Of a DNA stretch of 64,000 nucleotides, positions 23,270 through 33,325 are shown piece by piece (positions within the stretch are counted from its first letter, which is position 1; the number at the start of each line of letters is the position of its first letter). A program made the translations under genes and the position numbers. Origin of the DNA: Rhodobacteraceae bacterium Alg231-04. Its GTDB lineage: Bacteria; Pseudomonadota; Alphaproteobacteria; Rhodobacterales; Rhodobacteraceae. A model generated the notes under the pieces. It was not told where the DNA came from and ran no database searches. It worked only from the letters and a program-made list of their open reading frames with translations. Location: NCBI GenBank assembly GCA_900143635.1, contig FREY01000011.1, positions 62,003-126,002 on the forward strand, in the 5' to 3' direction.

Positions 23270-24175
23270 TCAGAATTTCACTGCTGGCACGGTCGGGGTT
23301 TGCATGCGCCGTTTCAACACCGCTTCGCGCCAGGACATATAACTGATCGCCCCTAGTATCATGGCACCACCGGCCACCACCCATATGTCCACCGGCTCTG
23401 AGAAGAAGACAACGCCGGTGATTGTCGCCCAGACCAGCTGCAAAAAGGTGACCGGCTGCGTCAGCGCCACCGGTGCCAGCCGGAAGGCCAGGGTCATCGT
23501 GTAATGGCCGCCCGTCGCCAAAGTCGCCACCGCAAAAAGCAACCCCACTTCGGCCCAGCCCACCGGCTGCCAGACGGCAATGGCAAAGGGCAAGACACCG
23601 ATGGTCGTGGCGACAGATAACAGGGCCACAACCCGGCCCGGATCAATCCGGTCGGCGAAAAACTTGGCGATCACATAGGACCCGCCCAGCGCCAAGGCTG
23701 CCCCAATCATGGCCAGATGGCCGGGGGACACTTCGCGGATACCGGGGCGCAGGATGATCATGGCGCCAATCAGGGCGACGCAAATTGCCATGATCCGCCG
23801 CAGGGCCAGCGGTTCACCCAAAAACAGCGCCGCAGCCAAAGTGACACAGACCGGCGTGAGGTAATTCATCGCCGTCACTTCCGCAAAGGAGATCTCGGTC
23901 AGCGCATAAAACCACAGCAGGATCGCTGCCGTATGAAAGACACCTCGCACCGCAGACAAGGCCCAGACCCGTCGACCCAGCGGTTCCCGAAACAGACGTA
24001 GGCAGGCAGGCAACAGCCAGAACAGCCCAAAGAAATATCGCAGGAACGCCCCCTGGGCAGACGGCACATCCCGCCCCACAAATTTCACAAGGGCGGTCAT
24101 CGATACAAACAGCATGCCTGTGACGATCATCCAAAGGACACTTTTGACGGGGTTATGCTGGGGGGCGACTGACAT
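23270..24175 (-). CDS. DMT superfamily (EamA/RhaT) transporter
   Basis: About 301 residues with ten predicted helices in two EamA repeats. The first repeat has VPSAQGAFLRYFFGLFWLLP and AEVTAMNYLTPVCVTLAAAL; the second ends PVDIWVVAGGAMILGAISYM. The ATG at 24175 is given, though a GTG five codons earlier is possible. Inner-membrane exporter of metabolites or amino acids; substrate unknown. A single gene, without obvious partners. Confidence 0.9.
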   Translation of the reverse strand: MSVAPQHNPVKSVLWMIVTGMLFVSMTALVKFVGRDVPSAQGAFLRYFFGLFWLLPACLRLFREPLGRRVWALSAVRGVFHTAAILLWFYALTEISFAEVTAMNYLTPVCVTLAAALFLGEPLALRRIMAICVALIGAMIILRPGIREVSPGHLAMIGAALALGGSYVIAKFFADRIDPGRVVALLSVATTIGVLPFAIAVWQPVGWAEVGLLFAVATLATGGHYTMTLAFRLAPVALTQPVTFLQLVWATITGVVFFSEPVDIWVVAGGAMILGAISYMSWREAVLKRRMQTPTVPAVKF

Positions 24176-24275
24176 GCCTTCATAGAGCACGGCTGACCAC
24201 CCGCGCTCAACCCTTCACTTGTTCAGCATTCACTCGCACACCGGCCCGTCACAAAAATGCGCGCTCCGGCCAAGA

Positions 24276-24878
24276 TCAGGCCAAGATCAGACCGGCCGCA
24301 ATCACCCACATTGTCAGGCCGACAAATGCATCCAGCAGCTGCCAGGCTCTGGGGATGGCAAACAGCGGCGCCAGCAAGGCAGCACCATAGCCAAGGGTAA
24401 AGAAGAAGGTGAAACTGGCCAGAACCGCCCCAACCCCAAACACAAAAGGGTTCGGATACTGCGCGGAAATCGCCCCCAGCAGAACCACCGTATCCAGATA
24501 GACATGCGGGTTCAGCCAGGTCAGCGCCAAGACCGTAAGCAGGACCGGCAGCAAAGCCGCCCCTGCCCCTTCGCCGCCGCTGTCCAATGCTGAACCGCCA
24601 GCCCAGGCCGAGCGCAGGTTTCGCGCACCATACCAAAGCAGGAACGCGGCCCCGCCCCAACGCGCGGCCTGCTCCAGCACCGGGTTGGCAGCGACCAGCG
24701 CCCCGAAACCGGCAACGCCAGCCGCAATCAACACCGCATCCGAGGTCGCACAGGTCAGGCAAATCCAGAACACATGACGCCGCCGCAACCCCTGTCGCAG
24801 CACAAAGGCATTCTGCGCGCCGATCGCCATGATCAGGCTGAACCCAAGGAAAAATCCGGCAAACAGGCTATTGGGCAT
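24276..24878 (-). CDS. LysE/ArgO family amino acid exporter
   Basis: 200 residues with six helices. FSLIMAIGAQNAFVLRQGL at the N-terminus and LALTWLNPHVYLDTVVLLG in the middle are the LysE/ArgO hallmarks. Family members export basic amino acids. It is divergent from a LysR-type gene of the ArgP/LysG branch, the usual arrangement in which the regulator senses intracellular lysine or arginine and turns on the exporter. Confidence 0.93.
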   Translation of the reverse strand: MPNSLFAGFFLGFSLIMAIGAQNAFVLRQGLRRRHVFWICLTCATSDAVLIAAGVAGFGALVAANPVLEQAARWGGAAFLLWYGARNLRSAWAGGSALDSGGEGAGAALLPVLLTVLALTWLNPHVYLDTVVLLGAISAQYPNPFVFGVGAVLASFTFFFTLGYGAALLAPLFAIPRAWQLLDAFVGLTMWVIAAGLILA

Positions 24879-24941
24879 TGGGGCGGTCCTTTCACTTCGG
24901 CTTTTGACTACGGCGGTTCCTGCCTGTATTCAAATTAAAGA

Positions 24942-24957
24942 TTATCACTCAAGATAA
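24942..24957. promoter_or_regulatory. Candidate ArgP/LysG operator
   Basis: Inverted repeat TTATC-N6-GATAA in the 88-bp gap between the divergent exporter and regulator genes, in a locally AT-rich stretch. It ends 9 bp before the regulator start. The shape is compatible with a LysR-type (T-N11-A) site. Confidence 0.5.
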
Positions 24958-24966
24958 GAGTTCCTA

Positions 24967-25866
24967 ATGCAGTTTGATCCCAGCCAGCTTGCCGCCCTTG
25001 CTGCCGTTCTGCGCCTCGGCTCCTTTGATGCAGCAGCTCATGCCCTTTCGGTCACCCCGTCTGCCATCTCCCAGCGGATCAAGGCGCTGGAGGAGAAGAC
25101 CGGCGGCACCCTGATCCACCGTGCCACCCCCTGCACCGGCACCGAAGCAGGGCTGCGCATCGCCAAACACGCCGAAGACATCGGTCTGCTGGAGGCCCAT
25201 CTGGCGCGCGATCTGTCGCTGGGCAGCGCTGATGCACCGGCGCGTCTGCGCATCGCGGTCACCGCAGACAGCGTCGCCACATGGTTCGTCGAGGCCATGG
25301 CGGCCTGTGACGGGGTGCTGTTTGATCTGGTGCTGGACGATCAGGACCACAGCGCCGACTGGCTGAAACGCGGCGAGGTCTCTGCCGCCGTCACTGCCCA
25401 TGGCCGTGCGGTTGCCGGTTGTGACAGCCACCCACTGGGTGAGATGCATTATATCGCCACCGCCAGCCCGGCCTTTATGACCCGCTGGTTTCCAGACGGC
25501 GTCACACCCGCCGCGGCGGCCCGCGCCCCCTGTCTGGTGTTCAACGCCAAGGACGGGCTGCAACGCCTCTGGCTGGAGACCCATGTTGGCCCGCGCCTGT
25601 CGCCGCCGGCCCATTTCATGGCCTCCAGTCAAGCCTTTGTTGACGCAGCACGGGCCGGGATCGGCTGGGGCATGAACCCGGAACAGCTGGTCCGGCGGGG
25701 GCTGCGCCGTGGCAAGCTGGTCGCCCTACTGCCCGATACTGCGCTTTCGGTGCCGCTGAGCTGGCAGGTCAGCCGCATCATGGCCCCGGCACTTGCCCCC
25801 GTTACCGCCGCCGTGCTGCAGTCCGCCCAGCGCAATCTGCCCCGCACCGCCCCCAAAGGAGCGTAA
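24967..25866 (+). CDS. argP: LysR-family regulator, ArgP/LysG type
   Basis: 299 residues. The winged helix-turn-helix is LAALAAVLRLGSFDAAAHAL followed by SVTPSAISQRIKALEEKTG. The S-A-I-S-Q-R-I-K-x-L-E pattern and HRATPCTGTEAG are typical of the ArgP (IciA)/LysG branch. The effector domain extends to the C-terminus. It is divergent from the LysE exporter, which it should activate with lysine or arginine. One base separates its stop from the next gene, so the nitroreductase is probably co-transcribed. Confidence 0.9.
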   Translation: MQFDPSQLAALAAVLRLGSFDAAAHALSVTPSAISQRIKALEEKTGGTLIHRATPCTGTEAGLRIAKHAEDIGLLEAHLARDLSLGSADAPARLRIAVTADSVATWFVEAMAACDGVLFDLVLDDQDHSADWLKRGEVSAAVTAHGRAVAGCDSHPLGEMHYIATASPAFMTRWFPDGVTPAAAARAPCLVFNAKDGLQRLWLETHVGPRLSPPAHFMASSQAFVDAARAGIGWGMNPEQLVRRGLRRGKLVALLPDTALSVPLSWQVSRIMAPALAPVTAAVLQSAQRNLPRTAPKGA

Positions 25867-25867
25867 C

Positions 25868-26560
25868 ATGTTCTCAAAATCCACCCTCAGCTACGAGCCT
25901 CTGCCACTGCCGGACCGGGCCAGCTATAGCGACGCCGAAATGGCCGCAAAATCCGGGGATTTCCTCGCCCATATGCGACGACGGCACACGGTCCGCGACT
26001 ATTCGGACCGCCCCGTTCCGCGCGCCGTGATCGAATCCTGCATAGCGGCCGCTGGCACGGCCCCTTCTGGTGCCAACCATCAACCCTGGCATTTCGTGGC
26101 CATCGCCAACCCCGCATTGAAGGCCCGCGTCCGCGCTGAGGCCGAGGAGGAGGAACGGCGGTTCTATGCAGGTGGTGCCGGAGACGAGTGGATCAAGGCG
26201 CTGGAACCCATCGGCACCACGGCCGAAAAGCCGCATCTGACCATTGCGCCCTGGCTGATCATCGTCTTTGCCCAGCGCTGGGGCCAGTTCGACGATGGCA
26301 GCCGCTACAAGAACTACTACGTGCCCGAAAGCGTCAATATCGCCACCGGGTTCCTGCTGACGGCGCTGCACACTGCCGGGCTCTGCACGTTAACCCACAC
26401 GCCCAACCCGATGAAATTCCTCAATGATGCACTGGGGCGTCCCGCCTCGGAAAAGCCGACGATGATCATCGCGGTCGGACACCCCTCAGAGGACGCAACA
26501 GTCCCCGGAGTCGCCAAGCTCAAGAAACCATTGCAAGACATCTCGACCTTCCGGGAATAA
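25868..26560 (+). CDS. Nitroreductase family protein resembling iodotyrosine deiodinase
   Basis: 230 residues, FMN-binding fold. RRRHTVRDYSDRPVP and AAGTAPSGANHQPWHFV form the FMN site. E96, Y100 and K121 have the same spacing (Y-4, Y, Y+21) as E157/Y161/K182 of human iodotyrosine deiodinase, which grip the amino acid part of halotyrosine. W108 and the late motifs SVNIATGFLLTALHTAGL, LGRPASEKP and VGHPSEDATVP also match. Reductive dehalogenation of halotyrosines is therefore plausible; it is inferred from residues recalled, not aligned by program. It follows the ArgP-like gene by 1 bp. Confidence 0.85.
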   Translation: MFSKSTLSYEPLPLPDRASYSDAEMAAKSGDFLAHMRRRHTVRDYSDRPVPRAVIESCIAAAGTAPSGANHQPWHFVAIANPALKARVRAEAEEEERRFYAGGAGDEWIKALEPIGTTAEKPHLTIAPWLIIVFAQRWGQFDDGSRYKNYYVPESVNIATGFLLTALHTAGLCTLTHTPNPMKFLNDALGRPASEKPTMIIAVGHPSEDATVPGVAKLKKPLQDISTFRE

Positions 26561-26614
26561 CCGCCCACCCGGCTTTTCCTTGCCACAAAGGCCTGCTGCC
26601 GCGATCATCAGCCG

Positions 26615-27460
26615 GTGGCACAGGATACGGCACCCCCGCTCGAACGGGCCTTCTGGCTTTATGCCGCCCTCCCGCGGGGGGCGGCGCTGGTGGCGGTCTG
26701 GTGCCTTGGGCTTGCTGGCCCTTTGCCACAGCTCCTGCTTGGCGGGCTTCTTCTGTGCGATCTACTGCTGTTTGTCTGGCAGGCACGCCTGTTCCAGCGC
26801 AGCGCCGACGACCATATCCGCACCCACGGCGCTATGGCGGCAGTTTGGGGCGGACAGTTAGCCCTGTTATTTGCGGCCTCTACTGCAGCCTCACTCTGGT
26901 GGGGTGTGTTCCTCAACGCAGGGCAAACAGAGAGGCCAGAGCTGTTCACTGAACAAATGGATCGGTTGCACGCCGCCGCCTACCGGCTGGAGTCTCCGGA
27001 CGGCGGGCGTGAAGTGCATTTCCGCGGCATCATCACCTATGGCCTGACCAAACGTCTGACCGCCTTTCTGAAAAACACGCCGCAAGCCGCTGTGCTGGTC
27101 CTGTCCAGTCCCGGAGGTCACATATACGAGGCGCGCGGCGCGGCGCAGGTCGTCCTTGCCCATGGGCTGGCCACCCGCGTCGAGGCCGAATGCGCCTCAG
27201 CCTGCACACTAATCTTCGCCGCCGGAAGCACGCGCACAATGGCCAGAGGCGCCCGCCTGGGGTTTCACGGCTACGGAGTGGAAAGCGGCGCCGGCCTACC
27301 CAACGTTGATCTGGCGGCAGAACAGGAAAAGGACCGCAGGTTTCTGCGTGATCGCGGCGCAGATGAGGTCTTTCTCGATCGGGCCTTCGCAACGCCGCAC
27401 AGCCGCATCTGGCACCTTGACCGTCAGGCCGCCAATAATGCCGGGCTTCTATCCCCTTAA
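26615..27460 (+). CDS. Membrane protein with ClpP/crotonase-like serine protease domain
   Basis: 281 residues. Two or three hydrophobic segments in the first 95 residues (LPQLLLGGLLLCDLLLFVW; LALLFAASTAASLWWGVFL) precede a ClpP-like domain outside or on the membrane. VLVLSSPGGHIYEA is the oxyanion-hole strand, ECASACTLIFAAG carries the presumed nucleophilic serine, and RLGFHGYG the histidine. This matches the COG3904-type periplasmic proteins. The GTG start at 26615 is uncertain because no clear ribosome site precedes it. Substrate unknown. Confidence 0.78.
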   Translation: MAQDTAPPLERAFWLYAALPRGAALVAVWCLGLAGPLPQLLLGGLLLCDLLLFVWQARLFQRSADDHIRTHGAMAAVWGGQLALLFAASTAASLWWGVFLNAGQTERPELFTEQMDRLHAAAYRLESPDGGREVHFRGIITYGLTKRLTAFLKNTPQAAVLVLSSPGGHIYEARGAAQVVLAHGLATRVEAECASACTLIFAAGSTRTMARGARLGFHGYGVESGAGLPNVDLAAEQEKDRRFLRDRGADEVFLDRAFATPHSRIWHLDRQAANNAGLLSP

Positions 27461-28372: not shown

Positions 28373-30145
28373 ATGACATTGGATCAGATCATTATCTTTG
28401 CCCTTTTCGCCTGTGTGTTTGGCCTGCTGCTCTGGGGCCGTTACCGATATGACCTTGTGGCCTTTGCCGCGCTGATGGCCGGTGTGGTGCTGGGGGTGGT
28501 CCCAACCAAAGACGCCTTTGCCGGTTTTGGCCATCCTGCGACACTGGTTGTTGCACTGGTGCTGATTGTCTCAGCCGGGTTGGTGCGATCGGGCGCGGTG
28601 TTTCTGATCACCCGAACATTGGTCGATGCCTCGCGCGGATTGGGCGCCCATATCACCCTGATGGGCGGTATCGGCGCGGTGCTCTCGGCCTTTATGAACA
28701 ATGTGGCAGCGCTGGCCCTGTTGATGCCGGTCGACATCCAGACCGCCAAAAAGGCAGGCCGGGCGCCGGGGCTCAGCCTGATGCCACTGTCCTTTGCCAC
28801 CATTCTTGGCGGCATGGCGACGCTGATCGGCACGCCGCCCAATATCATCATCGCCACCATCCGCGGCGAGGCGACAGGCACGCCCTTCGCGATGTTTGAT
28901 TTTGCTCCCGTCGGCGGTATCGCTGCCATCGCCGGGCTGCTGTTTGTGGCGCTGATCGGCTGGCGGCTGATCCCGTCGCGCGATGGGGCCGGCGCGGCAC
29001 AGGCTCAGATGGCCGATTACATCGCCGAGCTGACGGTGCCCGAAGATTCTAAGCTGATTGGCAAACGCGTGGGTGCGCTGGACCCAGAGGCTGACAAGGC
29101 CGATGTGGCCATTCTTGGGCTGATCCGGGACGGCAAGCGGCGCTACGGGCGCGCGGCAGGTGCCCACCTCAGAGCCGGGGATGCGCTGATTTTGGAAGCC
29201 AGCCCCGAGGCACTGGACGAATTTCGCAGCGCCCTGGCGTTGGATTTCTCGGACACGGCGCGGCAGGAGAAACTCACCGCCGCCGGCGAAGGCCTGGAAG
29301 TGGCCGAAGTTGTGGTGCCGGAAACGGCGCGGATCGCGGGCCGGTCCGCACAGGCGCTGGGGCTGGCCTGGCGGCAGAGTGCCGTGTTGATGGGCATTTC
29401 CCGCGAAGGCCGCCAAATCACCAGCCATGTACGCCAGCAGATCGTGCAGCCCGGTGACATCCTGCTGCTGCTCAGCCCCACCGGACGTTCGGGCGAGGTT
29501 GCGGATTGGCTCGGCTGCCTGCCTTTGGCGGGGCGCGGTGGCGCGGTCACGGCGAACGATAAAACATGGCTCGCCATCGGGCTTTTTGCAGCGGCCGTTC
29601 TGGCCGCTTCGGTCGGGCTGTTGTATCTGCCGGTGGCACTGGGGCTGGTTGCCATCGGATATGTGCTGGCCAAGATCCTGCCGGTGGCCGAGATTTATGA
29701 CCACGTGGAATGGCCCGTGGTGGTGCTGTTGGGATCAATGATCCCGCTTGGGGCGGCATTGGATAGTTCAGGCGGGACAGCACTGATCGCTGATGGGCTG
29801 ATCTCACTCACCGCTGGCATGCCTGCCTGGGCGGTTCTCACCGTGCTGATGGTGGTCACCATGACCCTGTCGGATGTGCTGAACAACACCGCCACCACCA
29901 TTGTGGCCGCACCTGTGGGCATTCAGATGGCGAACACATTGGGTGTGTCGGCAGATCCCTTCCTGATGGCGGTGGCCGTGGCGGCTTCGGCGGCGTTTCT
30001 CACCCCGATTGGCCATAAGAACAACACGCTGATCCTGGGGCCCGGCGGCTATCGGTTCGGAGACTACTGGCGTATCGGTCTGCCGCTTGAAGTGCTGATC
30101 ATCGCTGTCTCCATCCCGGCGATCCTTGTGTTCTGGCCCCTGTGA
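28373..30145 (+). CDS. SLC13 family permease with two TrkA-C domains
   Basis: 590 residues. Membrane helices fill residues 1-200 and 390-590; between them are two cytosolic TrkA-C (RCK-C) domains, with VPEDSKLIGKRVGAL and VPETARIAGRSAQALG as their starts. SFATILGGMATLIGTPPNII and AAFLTPIGHKNNTLILGPGG are paired substrate/sodium loops of the SLC13/DASS fold. Likely uptake of sulfate or a dicarboxylate; the substrate cannot be assigned. A second member lies 1.4 kb away on the other strand. Confidence 0.92.
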   Translation: MTLDQIIIFALFACVFGLLLWGRYRYDLVAFAALMAGVVLGVVPTKDAFAGFGHPATLVVALVLIVSAGLVRSGAVFLITRTLVDASRGLGAHITLMGGIGAVLSAFMNNVAALALLMPVDIQTAKKAGRAPGLSLMPLSFATILGGMATLIGTPPNIIIATIRGEATGTPFAMFDFAPVGGIAAIAGLLFVALIGWRLIPSRDGAGAAQAQMADYIAELTVPEDSKLIGKRVGALDPEADKADVAILGLIRDGKRRYGRAAGAHLRAGDALILEASPEALDEFRSALALDFSDTARQEKLTAAGEGLEVAEVVVPETARIAGRSAQALGLAWRQSAVLMGISREGRQITSHVRQQIVQPGDILLLLSPTGRSGEVADWLGCLPLAGRGGAVTANDKTWLAIGLFAAAVLAASVGLLYLPVALGLVAIGYVLAKILPVAEIYDHVEWPVVVLLGSMIPLGAALDSSGGTALIADGLISLTAGMPAWAVLTVLMVVTMTLSDVLNNTATTIVAAPVGIQMANTLGVSADPFLMAVAVAASAAFLTPIGHKNNTLILGPGGYRFGDYWRIGLPLEVLIIAVSIPAILVFWPL

Positions 30146-31546: not shown

Positions 31547-33325
31547 TCAAAGCGGCCAGATGAAGGGAATGAGGAAAGAGGCCAAGAGCCCAATGCTGAG
31601 GTTCAACGGAATGCCCACGCGCATGAAATCGGTGAACTTATAGCCGCCAGGACCATAGACCATCATATTGGTCTGATAGCCGATGGGTGTCGCAAAAGAG
31701 GCCGAGGCCGCCACCATGACCGCAACAACCAGCGGACGCGGGTCCAGCCCCATGGCCTGCGCCAGCCCAATGGCGATCGGTGTCACCACCACCGCAACCG
31801 CATTATTGGACACCAGTTCCGTCAGAACCGAGGTCAAAAGATACACCGCCCAAAGAACCAAAAACGGCGGCAACATGCCCAGCCCCGGTGCCACCGCCTC
31901 GACGATCAGCCGCACCGCGCCGGAGGCATCCAAAGCCGCACCAATGGCAAGCATCGAGAAAATAAGCGCCAGCAAGCGCCCGTCGACAAATGAGAACGCC
32001 TCTTCAGCGTCGATGCAGCGGGTGACCAGCACCAGCGCCACCGCGAGGATGGACAGCAGGAAAATCGGCGCCAGACCGACGGCGGCCAGACCAACGATGC
32101 CCAGCAGCGCAGCAATCGCAATCGGCGCATGGCTGCGGCGGTAGGCCTTGGCGGATGGGGCCGAGACCTCGACCATATCCATATCCGAAGACAGGCGCTG
32201 AATGTCTTCCGGCGCACCTTCCAGCAGCAGCGTGTCGCCAACCCGGACGATCAGATCATCCAGTTGGGTGCCGATATTCTGATTGCGCCGGTGAACGGCC
32301 AGCACATAGACACCATAGCGCCGCCGCAGACGCATCGCCCCCAGCGACCGGCCAACCATGCGGCAACCGGGGGTGATCAGAACCTCAACCGTCGAGGTTT
32401 CAACCGCAGACACCTGATCGACCCGCTTCAGCTCCTTATTGCGCTGCAGGCTCAGGAGTTCAGTCATCTGGGTGCGCAGAACCACCCGGTCCCCGACTTT
32501 CAGCTCCACCCCTTTGAGGTTGCGACGCAGCGACAGGTCGCCGCGGATCACATCGATCAGCCGCACGCCGGGGCGTTTGAACAGCTGCACGCCACTGACC
32601 TCGCGTCCAATCAGGTTGCTCTCCGGTGGAATCACCGCTTCGGTGAAGAATTTCATCTTCGAGCGGTCCGACAGCATCGCCGCCATCGAGGTGCGATCCG
32701 GCAGCAGCCGGGGCGCCACGAACCGCAGATAGAGCATCCCCCAGACCACAATCGCCAGACCCAGCGGTGTCACTTCAAAAATTGTAAAGGGTTCCATCCC
32801 TTCGGCGCGGGCAACCCCGTCAACCAGCAGGTTGGTCGAGGTGCCGATCAGCGTCAGCGTACCGCCCATGATCGCCGCATAAGACAGCGGGATCAGCATT
32901 TTTGACGCAGAGACCTTGAGGGTGCGCGAAATCTGGATGAACACCGGGATCATCACCACCACAACCGGCGTATTGGACACCACAGCCGAGGCCGCGACAA
33001 CAAAAGCCATCAGCATGGCAATGGCCAGTTTCGGGTTCACTTCGGCCTGTTTGCGCGCGGTTGCGGTAAAGGCCTCCAGCGCGCCGGTGCGCACCAGTGC
33101 GCCCATGACGATAAACATCGAGGCGATCGTCCAGGGCGCCGGGTTGGCCAGCACCGGCAGGGCGCGGTCATATGGCAGAACCCCGGTGATCAGCAGTGCC
33201 GAAACACCGGCGATTGCCACCACCTCGGTTGGATAAGATTCCCGCAGAAAGGCGATGAACATTCCCAGCACGATCACAATGGCAAGAAAGGCGCTGGTAT
33301 TGCCGGTAAGTTCGAATAGCTGCAT
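31547..33325 (-). CDS. SLC13 family permease with two TrkA-C domains (second copy)
   Basis: 592 residues with the same plan as the permease at 28.4 kb: membrane helices, two TrkA-C domains (VIPPESNLIGREVSGVQLF; LITPGCRMVGRSLGAMRL), membrane helices. SYAAIMGGTLTLIGTSTNLL and SFATPIGYQTNMMVYGPGGY are the paired substrate loops. Here the loop has the S-T-N form (GTSTNL), found in sodium-coupled carriers such as SdcS, where the other copy has G-T-P-P-N. The two are therefore not recent duplicates. Substrate unknown. Confidence 0.92.
   Translation of the reverse strand: MQLFELTGNTSAFLAIVIVLGMFIAFLRESYPTEVVAIAGVSALLITGVLPYDRALPVLANPAPWTIASMFIVMGALVRTGALEAFTATARKQAEVNPKLAIAMLMAFVVAASAVVSNTPVVVVMIPVFIQISRTLKVSASKMLIPLSYAAIMGGTLTLIGTSTNLLVDGVARAEGMEPFTIFEVTPLGLAIVVWGMLYLRFVAPRLLPDRTSMAAMLSDRSKMKFFTEAVIPPESNLIGREVSGVQLFKRPGVRLIDVIRGDLSLRRNLKGVELKVGDRVVLRTQMTELLSLQRNKELKRVDQVSAVETSTVEVLITPGCRMVGRSLGAMRLRRRYGVYVLAVHRRNQNIGTQLDDLIVRVGDTLLLEGAPEDIQRLSSDMDMVEVSAPSAKAYRRSHAPIAIAALLGIVGLAAVGLAPIFLLSILAVALVLVTRCIDAEEAFSFVDGRLLALIFSMLAIGAALDASGAVRLIVEAVAPGLGMLPPFLVLWAVYLLTSVLTELVSNNAVAVVVTPIAIGLAQAMGLDPRPLVVAVMVAASASFATPIGYQTNMMVYGPGGYKFTDFMRVGIPLNLSIGLLASFLIPFIWPL

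Follow-up and report, generated by a model that had tools for sequence, protein, structure and literature searches.

An iodotyrosine deiodinase-type flavoprotein encoded behind an ArgP-type regulator in a Rhodobacteraceae genome

Within a 64,000-nucleotide stretch of the genome of Rhodobacteraceae bacterium Alg231-04 (hereafter, the window), a complete open reading frame (ORF) of 230 amino acids, whose coordinates and strand we verified, is a typical, ordinary bacterial iodotyrosine deiodinase (IYD). Its assignment as an IYD rather than a general nitroreductase is well supported by sequence, a conserved substrate triad and the predicted fold. Very probably, the protein is a bacterial IYD orthologue that would work by the mechanism of the known IYDs, and the ArgP-type regulator and LysE-type exporter encoded beside it would form a separate unit.

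In the human thyroid, IYD removes iodine or bromine from tyrosine. The enzyme is described as occurring from mammals to bacteria in a recent review that cites Phatarphekar et al. 2014 (PMC13078365). The kind is thus already known, bacterial members included, because bacterial IYDs have been published and crystallised, and a single gene adds little beyond the published family.

Family assignment

In a sequence search of the PDB, the top match to the ORF was the IYD of Haliscomenobacter hydrossis (3.3e-62), followed by human and mouse IYD at about 1e-42 (four entries). The last IYD stood at 1e-18, and the best non-IYD nitroreductase, at 2e-11, ranked below all IYD entries. In this search no other nitroreductase comes as close to the ORF as the characterised IYDs do, some 30 orders of magnitude separating the vertebrate IYDs from the best non-IYD, and its identity to the human, mouse and H. 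hydrossis enzymes is 42–47%. An earlier, sequence-only reading of this DNA had held the match to be more specific than general nitroreductase similarity; this ranking, the conserved triad and the predicted fold bear that out.

Bacterial IYD crystal entries among the PDB matches were 5ko7, 5ko8, 5krd and 6pz0, the titles of the first three naming H. hydrossis IYD with FMN, iodotyrosine or iodophenol. With the H. hydrossis enzyme (about 45–47% identity) the ORF shares its length class, the lid, the E-Y-K triad and Trp, a K148-N-Y-Y block and a T-H-T-P motif, but that enzyme has Arg at the position of H40 and sits on a separate branch of the tree. Human and mouse IYD (IYD/DEHAL1; 4ttb, 4ttc, 3gb5, 3gfd) have in common with it the triad, W169, T239, the fold and the P-S-G-A loop, which in IYD is also the substrate-phenolate site; they differ in sequence (about 42% identity) and in R101 and R279, which are His and Lys in the window. 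Animal IYD carries an N-terminal membrane anchor, whereas the ORF begins straight at the domain. The entry 6pz0, a distant IYD from Thermotoga neapolitana, also has the IYD fold (Z 22.0), but it is shorter (184 residues), only 28% identical and much farther from the ORF than vertebrate IYD.

BluB and general PF00881 nitroreductases share the superfamily fold and the FMN site with the ORF. PF00881 is its sole solid Pfam match; PF14512 also passes its cut-off, yet through one 27-residue stretch only. No NCBIfam equivalog cut-off was reached, and the BluB model TIGR02476 gave 51.4 bits (E 8e-14), far below its cut-off of 150. This profile could be read as a generic nitroreductase or NAD(P)H oxidase with a coincidental triad. 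We consider that very improbable, given the 30 orders of magnitude noted above, a triad that 139 homologues keep without exception but that the other nitroreductases of the genome lack, and structural Z scores of 25–26 with ligand-bound IYD, whereas the best non-IYD reached 17.6.

Substrate triad, FMN site and predicted fold

The features of the ORF discussed below are as follows.

25868..26560, + strand: IYD-type FMN nitroreductase-superfamily protein, 230 residues (sequence, conservation, predicted fold)
25982..25996, + strand: FMN-phosphate motif R39-H40-T41-V42-R43, corresponding to human R100-R101-S102-x-R104 (alignment; contacts from PMC3930498)
25985-25987, + strand: codon of H40, His in place of the Arg101 FMN contact (alignment)
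26063..26074, + strand: P66-S67-G68-A69 loop, FMN contact (alignment)
26153..26167, + strand: E96 and Y100, lid residues of the substrate triad (139/139)
26228..26230, + strand: K121, third residue of the substrate triad (139/139)
26399..26401, + strand: T178, equivalent of mouse T235 and human T239 at the flavin (139/139)

E96, Y100, W108 and K121 correspond to human E157, Y161, W169 and K182 at one constant offset of 61, and the HMMER alignment to human, mouse and H. hydrossis IYD is gap-free across this stretch, so the spacing and the Trp match first noticed from the sequence both hold. Alignment with characterised bacterial and human IYDs, which the sequence-only reading had proposed as a check, left the triad intact: it is invariant in all 139 sequences, the three characterised IYDs (human, mouse and H. 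hydrossis) included. R39, R43, P66, G68, Y150 and T178 are likewise invariant, and W108 is present in 138 of the 139. Neither the triad nor the IYD lid was found in the genome's five other PF00881 proteins.

The FMN site departs somewhat further from the animal enzymes. Mouse IYD contacts FMN through R96, R97, S98, R100, P123, S124, T235 and R275 (PMC3930498), for which the ORF has R39, H40, T41, R43, P66, S67, T178 and K219. Five of the eight are identical; the other three are changes of Ser to Thr, Arg to His and Arg to Lys. The change at T41 also occurs in H. hydrossis IYD. At position 40, the counterpart of human R101, 116 of the 139 sequences have His and 23 have Arg, the latter including H. 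hydrossis and human; at position 219, which aligns with human R279, 129 have Lys. The mutation R101W is known from human hypothyroidism, and in mouse IYD the residues equivalent to R101 and R279 both contact FMN (PMC3930498). The claim that the FMN-site motifs match is accordingly true only in part, because H40 and K219 replace Arg contacts, and we count His at a human disease-mutation site and Lys for Arg279 against the IYD explanation.

These two substitutions would also suit a protein whose IYD pocket binds tyrosine-like amino acids but whose natural reaction in this lineage is some other flavin reduction, for example of a quinone-type compound or a differently substituted tyrosine, dehalogenation being no more than a side activity. 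We regard this as possible but doubtful. The pocket and lid residues that we tested and the flavin-side Thr are all invariant or nearly so, which speaks for the IYD reading, as does the predicted structure.

An AlphaFold model built on a 32-row alignment has a mean pLDDT of 88.9 and predicts helices at residues 82–101 and 106–115, where the IYD lid lies (block pLDDT 77–97). Foldseek placed IYDs at the top, with the ligand-bound structures 5ko8, 4ttc and 3gh8 over ligand-free IYD forms. VIA-align gave Z scores of 26.0 to 5ko8, 25.3 to 4ttc and 22.0 to 6pz0, with non-IYD folds at 17.6 or less. The iodotyrosine-bound, closed IYD fits this predicted model best, above the ligand-free forms, as expected of a two-helix lid over FMN that closes on substrate.

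Phylogeny and distribution

In a tree built without 6pz0, H. hydrossis and mammalian IYD pair with support of 99/96, and the branch of the window's protein, which lies inside an alphaproteobacterial set (100/99), falls outside that pair. The forks between IYD groups are poorly resolved, and very long branches are the only thing separating the attached non-IYD nitroreductases. This topology would fit a single IYD family in which the window's protein is not nested inside the characterised pair. That position is counted against the IYD explanation and favours a different natural reaction, as set out above. So, too, do we count the patchiness of the gene against the IYD explanation.

More than 500 relatives of the ORF were found in the genome collection, and 67 of the 198 family genomes carry IYD, as do 31/289 of the class and 23/299 of the phylum. 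In Deinococcus, Streptomyces, Paraburkholderia and Bacteroidota it occurs on plasmid records or secondary replicons. This distribution is patchy, as expected of an accessory function. The set in culturable Roseobacters, which includes Ruegeria pomeroyi, is large as well as patchy and would make a genetic test of the role feasible.

In two family genomes the IYD gene is broken into two frames, with a stop in one of them (G297:C3:3426398-3427059 and G395:C61:32725-33200), which suggests recent decay in some lineages.

Gene neighbourhood and proposed role

Three genes precede the IYD gene.

23270..24190, − strand: EamA-family transporter, syntenic with LysE-ArgP-IYD in the Roseobacter lineage (Pfam, gene order)
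24276..24878, − strand: LysE/ArgO-type basic amino acid exporter, divergent from the regulator (PF01810; TIGR00948 186 bits, cut-off 213.65)
24967..25866, + strand: ArgP/LysG-type LysR regulator (TIGR03298 351.8 bits, above its cut-off of 273.55)

The context is as had been described from the sequence: a single base pair separates the end of the ArgP regulator gene from the IYD start codon, and the exporter diverges, starting 88 bp upstream of the regulator. A promoter and terminator scan of 24850-26700 found nothing between ArgP and IYD, which fits co-transcription but does not prove it; in this lineage IYD is probably translated from the ArgP transcript.

The order LysE-ArgP-IYD, usually with EamA, is common to Pseudophaeobacter, Leisingera, Phaeobacter, Ruegeria and Aestuariivita, in which ArgP and IYD are 1 to about 54 bp apart, and is kept at two loci (L032 and L035) despite a different downstream flank. 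Such conservation would be expected if ArgP, LysE, EamA and IYD were one Roseobacter unit that senses, dehalogenates and exports modified amino acids. We think this unlikely. Both the regulator (ArgP/LysG) and the exporter (LysE type) are of standard kinds; by coordinates compared by hand, ArgP adjoins IYD in only 13 of the 67 IYD genomes of the family, and 37 of the 69 family genomes with this ArgP lack IYD. Both genes occur together in 32 family genomes, where about 23 would be expected if they were independent.

Across 80 genome loci and wider genome draws, no conserved IYD partner emerged beyond the Roseobacter lineage, because the genes beside IYD there are unrelated; among them are gyrase B, cytidylate kinase, esterases and TRAP transporters. 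The commonest operon-like neighbours (n=44) were a second nitroreductase (4/44) and a rubrerythrin/VIT protein (3/44). Nor were halogen-metabolism genes recurrent beside IYD in the compared loci, a further point for another natural reaction. Thus, of the proposal that the context fits the handling of modified amino acids, the ArgP/LysE gene order stands, but it is limited to one lineage, ArgP often occurs without IYD, and most IYDs lie beside unrelated genes. Support for a joint 'modified amino acid' operon is weak. The gene order is most simply read as IYD having come to lie, in a single lineage, behind a standard regulator of lysine/arginine export, and most probably ArgP and LysE make up a lysine/arginine export unit of their own. 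That the alphaproteobacterial His-for-Arg101 branch is an IYD subtype for bromotyrosines or another marine tyrosine derivative, placed under ArgP control with an exporter in Roseobacters, we regard as a long shot.

In Labrenzia, Roseibium, a Rhizobiaceae MAG and one family genome (G252), a second nitroreductase-family gene lies 2–34 bp upstream of IYD on the same strand.

L044, 4135-4998, same strand as IYD: second nitroreductase-family gene
L051, 4048-4998, same strand as IYD: second nitroreductase-family gene
L062, 4112-4987, same strand as IYD: second nitroreductase-family gene
L088, 621-1466, same strand as IYD: second nitroreductase-family gene

The E-Y-K triad was not found in the three of these four that were checked (all but L044). 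The upstream protein could be a partner enzyme.

Bacteria have no thyroid hormones that an IYD could help to recycle. By analogy with known IYDs, the protein would be a homodimeric FMN protein acting on halotyrosine as its presumed natural substrate. E96, Y100 and K121 would hold the zwitterion of a 3-halotyrosine, and the helical lid would then close over the flavin. T178 would hydrogen-bond the flavin and support one-electron transfer, and the carbon–halogen bond would be reduced, releasing iodide or bromide and tyrosine. Most likely it would serve to dehalogenate halotyrosines that the bacterium encounters in the sea, either to detoxify them or to salvage tyrosine. We looked in the genome for 4-hydroxyphenylpyruvate dioxygenase (HPPD) as an indicator of tyrosine catabolism; the canonical enzyme was not found. 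The only match (G000:C4:9645-10607) is below the cut-off and lies within a 706-residue open frame, so it may belong to a fusion protein and not to an HPPD of tyrosine catabolism.

Two other parts of the window drew our attention. Downstream of IYD, a 281-residue ORF (26615-27460) contains a ClpP/SppA-like stretch (SSPGGHIYEARG...AECASACTLIFAAG); it had no Pfam or NCBIfam matches and is conserved at 40–45% in Leisingera and Pseudophaeobacter. Farther on, two SLC13-type transporters (28373-30145, + strand, and 31547-33325, − strand) lie less than 1.5 kb apart on opposite strands; they have the look of paralogues, each with a central regulatory domain.
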